Source of the DNA: Spirochaetales bacterium
GTDB taxonomy: Bacteria; Spirochaetota; Spirochaetia; DSM-27196; Salinispiraceae
Assembly (NCBI GenBank): GCA_009991955.1
Contig: JAACWS010000011.1
Location: 1 to 64,000 of the forward strand
DNA length: 64,000 nucleotides
Direction: 5' to 3'
The notes beneath the pieces are model-generated. The model worked only from the letters and a program-made list of their open reading frames with translations. It did no database searches and was not told the origin of the DNA. Below, one piece after another: positions 1 through 47,903 of the stretch. The first letter of the stretch is position 1, and every line of letters begins with the position of its first letter. Both the position numbers and the translations under genes were made by a program.

Positions 1-170
1 GCGACCGCACTTCTTGCAGAGCAGTAGCGGGTGACCTTCCCGACGACCTTAGTGTGGTAAATACCGTGGTAGGTGAACCAGGAGTTGCCCGTTGGGGTAG
101 TGTGAAAGTAGGGGCAGGAAGGGTTCGGACAGTGGGGAAAGAAAGTTGAATGCTTCGGGGACCTCTTTAC
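1..170 (-). pseudogene. 5' remnant of a transposase-like gene
   Basis: Reading the minus strand from 170 gives a peptide with HSTFFPHCPNPSCPYFH, then a W-F-x-Y-H-G-I-Y segment and VTRYC. This resembles the zinc-ribbon N-terminus of DDE-type transposases (C-P-N-P-x-C near the start, a second C-x2-C-G-R pair later). The second cysteine pair (CKKCGR, bases 1-18) is out of frame with the first part, so there is a frameshift near bases 18-25. No ATG, GTG or TTG starts the frame: the expected position before KRSPKH reads GTA at 170-168, although an AGGGG lies just upstream. The gene continues beyond the window edge, so the catalytic part is not visible. Assignment to a transposase rests on the N-terminal pattern only; the exact IS family is unknown. 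Confidence 0.55.
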
Positions 171-288
171 ACCCCTATTCTTAATAGGCTTAGGTTCTTA
201 AGTCATTGCGGTGCAATGACCTACTTTGCCAGAAAACAAGGTTATAGAGGCCCCCGTTTCATAACTACTTATTACTAAGGGAAGTAGT
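171..288 (-). repeat. Structured repeat, copy A (transposase leader)
   Basis: On the minus strand this contains CTCTATAACC, then a T-rich run ending TGGC, a hairpin GTCATTG-CACCG-CAATGAC, and CCTAAGCCTATTAAGAATAGGGG. A second copy with the same layout lies at 47004-47131. The T-rich run can pair with AAGAATAGGG through several G-U pairs, and GGC with GCC, closing the element. A further hairpin (ACTACTT/AAGTAGT, 264-288) sits upstream. The element runs straight into the transposase-like remnant, so it is probably the leader or left end of an insertion sequence. Confidence 0.6.
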
Positions 289-6334: not shown

Positions 6335-6387
6335 AGGTGCCTCTGGAATCTTCGTCTCTGGGTGATTTGTCGTTTCCAGAGACACCT
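6335..6387 (-). promoter_or_regulatory. Mutually exclusive hairpins between ackA and the phospholipase gene
   Basis: On the minus strand segment 1 (GGTGTCTCTGGAA, 6386-6374) can pair with segment 3 (TTCCAGAGGCACC, 6348-6336) over 13 positions with one G-U, extended to 14 by A/T at 6335/6387. Segment 2 (CCAGAGAC, 6361-6354) lies between them and pairs perfectly over 8 bases with GTCTCTGG inside segment 1. Only one hairpin can form at a time, as in attenuators and riboswitches. No strong T-run terminator follows. The symmetry means the plus strand could also form it. Confidence 0.45.
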
Positions 6388-46404: not shown

Positions 46405-46962
46405 TTAGAAGTTGAGAATCTGAAAGTTCGTAAACCGTACTTCTTTGATGTCTCGAGTCATAATTTGGTTTACCAAGGCCCTGACCCTACTTCGAATTTC
46501 TTCTCGGTTATTTGCGTTAAGCAAGTACGCTGCATTTTGGCTACTAAACCAAAGAAGTATTTGGTCGGTGAGCTGGACTCTACGGCCTATGATTTCGTTT
46601 ACCGTGACACTATCTCCAGCATCGTACCCGAGCTGAATATTAACGACATAAGTGTTTCGGACTTCGTCGGCGGTAACCCCACGAAACTCTTCCATGTCAA
46701 AGAATTCGTAAACCGGAAGATTCTCTCGATAATCCTCGGTGACATCGGTTCGATTTGCATTACTCGTTCCAGTACCCAGGATGTTAAGGGTAATTACCAC
46801 GATTGTAACAACAAAGATTATCATTCCCAGGACTATTGCAGCCCACTTCAAGATCTGAATGACAATCGCAGGCATGAAACCTACTCTTTTTTTTCCACCC
46901 TCGGAGGCACCGGAATCACCTCCACCTACATCCTCATCACCTTCAAGAAAATCATCTGACAT
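46405..46962 (-). CDS. fliL: FliL, stator-associated protein
   Basis: 185 residues. Acidic, Gly-rich cytoplasmic end, one membrane helix (IVIQILKWAAIVLGMIIFVVTIVVITLNIL, about 32-60) and a periplasmic domain of stomatin-like fold ending NQIMTRDIKEVRFTNFQILNF. FliL surrounds and stabilises the MotA-MotB stator; in spirochaetes it is important for periplasmic flagellar function. AAGGAG precedes the ATG. The 209-base gap between it and motB contains the second structured repeat. Confidence 0.92.
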   Translation of the reverse strand: MSDDFLEGDEDVGGGDSGASEGGKKRVGFMPAIVIQILKWAAIVLGMIIFVVTIVVITLNILGTGTSNANRTDVTEDYRENLPVYEFFDMEEFRGVTADEVRNTYVVNIQLGYDAGDSVTVNEIIGRRVQLTDQILLWFSSQNAAYLLNANNREEIRSRVRALVNQIMTRDIKEVRFTNFQILNF

Positions 46963-47003
46963 AGGGTGCTCCTTCTAAACCGAGTTAGGATATGGGGAAC
47001 CAC

Positions 47004-47131
47004 TAGACCCTCTTCTTAATAGGCTCAGGCGCTTGGTCCATTGGGGTGCAAGGACCAATTCAGCCAAAAAAAGGGTTATAGAGTTTCCCATTGGATACTA
47101 TCATAGTTTTAGACCCCATTCTAGGGGTCTC
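47004..47131 (-). repeat. Structured repeat, copy B, between motB and fliL
   Basis: Minus-strand order: hairpin AGACCCC/GGGGTCT, CTCTATAACCC, seven T, GGC, hairpin TTGGTCC-TTGCACCCCAA-t-GGACCAA, CCTGAGCCTATTAAGAAGAGGG. The core matches the element at 171-288, including the apical TTGCACCsCAA and AGCCTATTAAGAA. The CCC-plus-T run pairs with AAGAAGA-GGG (ten pairs, two G-U), leaving a TATT bulge before GGC/GCC. TAGACCC occurs on both sides of the core (47004-47010, 47110-47116) and could be a target duplication or chance. The rest of the 46963-47171 gap has no gene. Confidence 0.6.
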
Positions 47132-47171: not shown

Positions 47172-47903
47172 TTAAATATTGCCTTCGGTAAGGATGATTA
47201 CGTCTACCCGACGGTTATAAGCTCTGCCTTCGGGCGTGTCGTTCGTGACTAAGGGCCGAAATTCTCCAAAGGTCATAACTTGGAATTTTTCTTCGGGCGA
47301 GCCAAAGTCCGTCAGGAGCATCATTGTGTTCACTGCTCGAGAACTACCCAGGTGCCAGTTGGTTGGCCACGCTCCGTTCGGGTCGGTTGGCTCGTCATCC
47401 GTATGACCTTCTACCCGAAACAAACGATCCTCTAGGCCTGGACTGCCCAATAATTGGGAAAGTTTTATGAGAACTTCCCGAGTTTCTTCTATTTTGACTT
47501 CCGCACTGGCGATTTCGAAAAATGCGTCACTGGCCAATGAAATCACCAAACCCCGTTCGTCCTCGGTTACCCGTACTACGTTGGTTCGTATCTCCGGTTG
47601 AAATAGGGACACTGCTAATCGGCGGGCCTGCGCGAGAGAACGTCCCGCTTGAAGGCTGGGCAAACTTTCTACATTATTACCCAGTTCCGCAAGTCGGCCT
47701 TCGGCGAGGGTATTTCCACCCGTAAAATTCCCCAGCCCTTGGAAGGCTGCCAGAATGAGCTGAAGTTTATAGCCGTCTACAGTGGCAGTAGTGAACATGA
47801 GGACGAAAAAAGTGAGAAGAAGGGTAACCATGTCTCCGTACGTGAGCATGTACTCGGGTACAGCACACTCAGGACATTTCTGTTTTTTTTCTGGCATACC
47901 CAT
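47172..47903 (-). CDS. motB: MotB, flagellar stator protein
   Basis: 243 residues. Short cytoplasmic end with C10-x2-C13, one membrane helix containing the ion-carrying D24 (YGDMVTLLLTFFVLMF), plug region and a C-terminal OmpA-like peptidoglycan-binding domain (FRVEGHTDDEPTDPNGAWPTNWHLGSSRAVNTM). It anchors the stator to the cell wall. GGAGG lies 9 bases before the first ATG. The coupling ion (proton or sodium) cannot be told by eye. Confidence 0.95.
   Translation of the reverse strand: MGMPEKKQKCPECAVPEYMLTYGDMVTLLLTFFVLMFTTATVDGYKLQLILAAFQGLGNFTGGNTLAEGRLAELGNNVESLPSLQAGRSLAQARRLAVSLFQPEIRTNVVRVTEDERGLVISLASDAFFEIASAEVKIEETREVLIKLSQLLGSPGLEDRLFRVEGHTDDEPTDPNGAWPTNWHLGSSRAVNTMMLLTDFGSPEEKFQVMTFGEFRPLVTNDTPEGRAYNRRVDVIILTEGNI

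Follow-up and report, generated by a model that had tools for sequence, protein, structure and literature searches.

The motB-fliL gap and its element

Within the window, by which we mean the whole 64,000-nucleotide stretch of DNA analysed here, the genes motB and fliL of a flagellar operon are separated by a gap of 209 bp. An element occupies 95 bp of this gap and is found again at the left edge of the window, within the gene of a zinc-ribbon insertion sequence (IS). The features concerned are as follows:

46405..46962, minus strand: fliL (Pfam FliL), the downstream neighbour of the copy in the operon
46995..47089, minus strand: copy of the element between motB and fliL, 95 bp, assigned below to a MITE family (family covariance model and sequence comparison)
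46995..47008, minus strand: right terminal inverted repeat (TIR) of this copy, degenerate, with end sequence TCTAGTGGTTCCC (alignment and sequence)
47033..47059, minus strand: apical hairpin of this copy, TTGGTCC-TTG-CACCC-CAA-T-GGACCAA, with a bulged T (fold and alignment)
47076..47089, minus strand: left TIR of this copy, GGGAAACTCTATAA (alignment and sequence)
47172..47903, minus strand: motB (Pfam MotB_plug and OmpA), the upstream neighbour of the copy in the operon
1..156, minus strand: 5′ part of the zinc-ribbon IS transposase gene, interrupted by the element; the contig ends here
157..255, minus strand: second copy of the element, 99 bp, following the ATGAAA of the IS transposase
202..220, minus strand: apical hairpin of the second copy, the 19-base palindrome GTCATTGCACCGCAATGAC (palindrome scan)
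6335..6387, plus strand: 53-bp remnant holding hardly anything besides two subfamily B TIRs (GGTGCCTCTGGAATC ... GTTTCCAGAGACACC; covariance model E 4.9e-4)

The initial annotation had reported an element shared by two places, and CTCTATAACC, TTGCACC and GCCTATTAAGAA are indeed present at both in the claimed order on the minus strand, with no other exact matches to this block pattern in the genome. The similarity between the two sequences is not due to chance (BLAST E 3e-10), and the family covariance model scores E 2.7e-24 and 4.9e-13 in the window, both sequences being part of the alignment of the model. The borders had been set at 47004-47131 and 171-288; the surplus bases are flank, and the element spans 46995-47089 and 157-255. 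The stems of the apical hairpin had been described as different in sequence. Differences do exist, but they are smaller than claimed: the 5′ sides share GGTC, and the 3′ sides are a bulged T and a few changes apart. Moreover, none of the 17 common pairs in a two-sequence alignment (alifold) is changed on both sides.

A consensus scan of the motB-fliL gap found no promoter and no terminator. Next to the element, at 47107-47130, lies another small hairpin with perfect pairing (AGACCCC TAGAAT GGGGTCT, without a T run), and the gap of a genome from the same genus (G001, 57% complete) carries a hairpin different from this one. In G001 the gap is about 165 bp long, aligns poorly to ours and lacks the element, which is also absent from G002 and G003. 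All four genomes of the taxonomic family (G000-G003) have a long motB-fliL gap, of about 165-380 bp, against only tens of bases in most other genomes and families of the order.

A dispersed family with transposon hallmarks

The genome holding the window is a 2.4-Mb draft (90 contigs, 93% complete). DNA (BLAST) searches of this genome gave 44 family matches. A search with a covariance model, suggested by the initial annotation and here made from 39 copies, found further copies: at E up to 0.1 it returned 79 rows, some overlapping or on both strands, and the family total comes to about 70 places. At 95-100 bp, members lie under the ~500 bp limit for a MITE and, like MITEs, carry no transposase or other gene; their consensus is GGGGACCTCTATAATCTGGTTTTCTGGCCAAGTTGGTCATTGCACCGCAATGACTTAAGAGCCTGAGCCGATTAAGAATAGGGGTTTATAGAGGTCCCC. 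Subfamilies vary in their end sequences (GGGGACCTCTATAATC, GGGCACCTCTAAAATC, GGGCACCTCTGGAATC) and inner arms. The copy in the motB-fliL gap is identical to the consensus at 74/99 positions and groups with copies missing three bases of the right arm (the short-right-arm subgroup), while that at 157-255 is identical at 89/99.

The ends of the family are near-perfect TIRs of ~14-16 bp; across 38 distinct copies, 88.7% of cells in the 14 TIR pairs are paired. Flanking sequences of 39 copies reveal a 5-bp target duplication, with 59.5% matching bases compared to 27.9% in shuffled pairs (maximum of 500 shuffles, 37.9%); duplication lengths of 2-4 and 6-9 were weaker or absent. Clear examples are AACCA (C59), GCTTT (C20), TAAGT (C44) and a perfect GTTTA (C68_30715). 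The second copy in the window is flanked by GAAAC/GAAGC. The flanks of the motB-fliL copy, CCAAT/CATAT, are a probable degenerate duplication matching at only 3/5 positions, so that we infer its insertion from the family. C68_30715 and C87_25074 match each other at all 99 bp, yet lie at unrelated sites with different flanks.

Further evidence of mobility comes from copies of the zinc-ribbon IS itself. The copy on C28 reads GTGAATATAGATATGAAAACCC with the element absent, the copy on C41 carries it immediately ahead of the start codon, and those on C79 and C68 have it after ATGAAA. Two independent insertions have therefore been made into copies of one IS, and the element is an insertion in this IS. 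The family thus shows the dispersal, the multiple copies and, from the identical pair and the empty and occupied IS copies, the mobility of a MITE. The tie to mobile DNA proposed in the initial annotation was correct. The IS (window 1-156, minus strand; left end TAGTGCCCCAAACCCTGTGGG) encodes a partial protein that falls below Pfam and NCBIfam cut-offs, and may possibly represent an undescribed IS family.

Gene context was analysed for 71 copies. None of the 71 fell within a gene predicted by a simple, crude codon-usage gene finder, although the copy at 157-255 does sit in a gene, one destroyed by its insertion. Copies landing in genes would be lost and intergenic copies would remain. In tandem gene pairs, 9 copies were in sense and 13 in antisense orientation (p = 0.52); the family is without fixed relation to transcription. 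The family model found no match in G001, G002 or G003, and neither 84,980 species genomes nor viral contigs contained an exact core pattern, of a kind that misses diverged copies. Two copies show complex arrangements: one (G000:C40:3475-3707) has its apical loop split by about 134 bp of other DNA, and a head-to-head abutting pair (G000:C29:29860-30031) apparently arose by insertion of one copy into the other.

An order-wide search with GGGCACCTCTGGAAAC recovered a 1210-bp element in G011 that carries this end on both sides, on one side with one mismatch. Its two TIRs read GGGCACCTCTGGAAACTCG and GGGTACCTCTGGAAACTCG, the former being alike to the subfamily B end in 18/19 bases. The transposase of this element is frameshifted and is assigned to IS5 by NCBIfam (transpos_IS5_4, 148.8 bits against a cut-off of 140). 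IS5-family insertion sequences are autonomous, 1.2 kb long and equipped with a transposase, and the likeness of the MITE to this one is confined to the ends. A search of the present draft genome for an intact autonomous partner found only an IS5-like N-terminal fragment, on C62, which is preceded by a similar end, GGGCACCTCTCAAAACC. Together, the TIR match and the C62 fragment make an IS5-type transposase the likely mobiliser; judged from these sequences, it would act in trans on the TIRs of the element, and we consider mobilisation of the family in this way quite likely. Counting against the IS5 link, small elements in G011 with the same TIR apparently have 4-bp duplications (GAAA, GACT) rather than the 5 bp seen here. 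G011 also has a ~98-bp MITE of its own (C8:9689-9786 and C100:42584-42681), with the same TIR and without such an internal hairpin.

At all six sites found (C1 end, C87 start, C60 start, C33 end, C69 start and C68:31399-31483), the family TIRs are abutted at exactly the same point (ATCATACCAT|CTCTA) by the end of an IS110-type element, with a PF02371 match on C68. This resembles the targeting of Tn21 TIRs by IS4321/IS5075, as attributed to Partridge and Hall (2003) in PMC11187229.

Dispersal, TIRs, target duplications, insertions into the IS and the IS5 TIR match all point to the element being a MITE. We therefore interpret the structured element in the flagellar operon as one old MITE copy among about 70 genome places, with a probability of roughly 0.93. 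The family is new and its kind is known; it is not a dedicated flagellar regulatory RNA.

The flagellar copy and the apical hairpin

Transcription of the operon would run through the motB-fliL copy, giving the mRNA a hairpin of -36 kcal/mol. The predicted fold of the copy (-36.2 kcal/mol) ranks 32nd in stability among 70 copies. We infer that it is probably an old, tolerated spacer insertion, transcribed through and acting mostly as a passive hairpin. An alternative is that the MITE has been co-opted, in which case its transcribed hairpin would act in mRNA stability or as an RNase III site and so set motB expression apart from that of fliL-fliM-fliN. Precedents exist in the cleavage of Correia-bearing mRNAs by RNase III at the TIRs and in the effect of ERIC on mRNA decay in Yersinia (PMC10969869), and the copy still folds at this stability despite its age (74/99). 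However, it is not singled out by its sequence, since other old copies fold likewise, the family has no orientation bias and no orthologous copy is known. Both this co-option and the underlying effect, that cleavage by RNase III or altered decay might affect motB and fliL levels, are thus possible but rather unlikely.

Correia elements (NEMIS/CREE) of Neisseria are likewise small, TIR-bearing, gene-less, multi-copy and intergenic, and fold when transcribed. They are unrelated in sequence and differ in size and internal hairpin, and RNase III cutting is established for them, whereas the present family is known from sequence. The Chunjie MITE of Geobacter uraniireducens likewise has many intergenic copies with one in an operon, whose structure it leaves undisturbed according to the title of the original paper, as cited in PMC10969869. 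Chunjie is 178-235 bp long and different in sequence; the present family is about 95-100 bp long, and its operon is flagellar. REP/BIME elements, associated with RAYT transposases, are also short palindromic intergenic repeats, but are devoid of the long matched TIRs and the target duplications of the family described here.

An unusual feature of the family is its apical hairpin. Stem and loop together accumulated 2.5 changes per site, fewer than the TIRs with 4.1 (p = 0.002) and the remaining positions with about 5, and the hairpin is kept across subfamilies despite differing inner sequence around it. This runs counter to the prediction for a purely TIR-driven parasite. The hairpin could be a protein site, a structural need of transposition or the trace of a master copy. 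Searches for the apical palindrome located 45 sites in this genome and none in 45 other genomes of the order. The palindrome was considered as the operator of a regulator, a reading that was rejected, most of the 45 sites being known MITE copies (three listed ones were unmapped). A more ambitious proposal would be that the 19-bp palindromic hairpin (GTCATTGC-ACC-GCAATGAC) has a function of its own, as RNA or as the target of a host protein, and thereby accounts for the success of the family, the motB-fliL copy being among those recruited for operon tuning. We regard this as doubtful.

Alternative origins and tests for a structured RNA

Members of the Tn3 family have a GGGG end and a 5-bp target duplication. 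A Tn3 origin was considered on these two grounds and was dropped upon the IS5 TIR match. Tn3-derived miniature elements (TIMEs; PMC4133298) are alike in GGGG termini and 5-bp duplications, but the 38-bp Tn3 TIR is absent here, the arms matching well for 14-16 bp only, and the matching TIR lies on an IS5-family element of a related genome, so the partner looks like IS5. A TIME is consequently a very unlikely identity for the element.

Another reading is a cis-acting RNA, riboswitch-like or a leader, controlling the balance between stator and switch genes, in which case the family would be one of dispersed regulatory RNAs. Some results are compatible with this. Both window copies fold better than dinucleotide shuffles, and the minus strand does so more strongly (z = -5.4 for 157-255 and -3.4 for the motB-fliL copy) than the plus strand (z = -3.2 and -1.5), as had been claimed, and the motB-fliL copy lies in sense orientation inside the operon. 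No Rfam family matches the element at gathering or permissive thresholds, in keeping with its having been placed outside the known RNA families. Run on 39 copies, RNAalifold recovered no more than 5 outer pairs, many pairs being disrupted in the old copies, and pairing in the named structure was counted instead. Across 38 distinct copies, 85.7% of cells pair compared to 83.0% in column shuffles (0/500), and compared to 70.6% when inferred changes fall randomly along the tree (0/300); these structure and selection tests are simple and purpose-written, and an alignment of 99 bp resolves the tree poorly.

A closer inspection of the changes themselves tells against an RNA. The two-sequence comparison had suggested compensatory changes under selection on structure, to be checked by an R-scape-type test. 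In the wider alignment an R-scape-like covariation test with a tree-based null found no structure pair at E < 0.05 (best E 3.2), which removes this support. Double changes are mainly in the TIRs, where they are expected from selection on transposase sites or from arm-to-arm template correction. Similarly, G-U pairs had been taken as a sign of RNA from the minus strand. Read on that strand, about 46 G-U and about 53 A-C events are derived from Watson-Crick pairs; derived G-U pairs are not above A-C, so neither RNA strand is favoured by selection. The forward strand of the element folds better in 56/70 copies, an advantage that appears to stem from ancestral G-U pairs. Without significant covariation or strand bias, pairing above the neutral null falls short of selection on RNA, and the RNA reading is unsupported beyond the trivial folding of any inverted-repeat element. 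Moreover, copies in either orientation beside unrelated neighbour genes argue against a cis-regulatory leader, as do the TIRs and target duplications, the negative Rfam result and the absence of the element from the same-genus motB-fliL gap. Taken together, these data render a cis-regulatory RNA highly improbable.

Least credible, at close to nil, is that the element in the operon is a stray leader RNA or end of the zinc-ribbon IS: the copy at 157-255 lies directly upstream of most of the transposase gene and that on C68 is arranged alike, but the uninterrupted IS copy on C28 refutes this reading, the element of C41 is in a different position, and most family members have no such IS alongside.

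A mobile-element explanation thus replaces a proposed new regulatory RNA, and the family provides a worked example of two-sequence covariation in TIR elements as a trap for RNA discovery. As a MITE set it is clean and its activity recent, with about 70 places in a genome of 2.4 Mb and no model match in three other members of the taxonomic family, and it is therefore usable as a marker of strain history. The slow evolution of its internal hairpin raises a concrete question, and the motB-fliL copy makes the family a test case for a transcribed MITE inside a flagellar operon.
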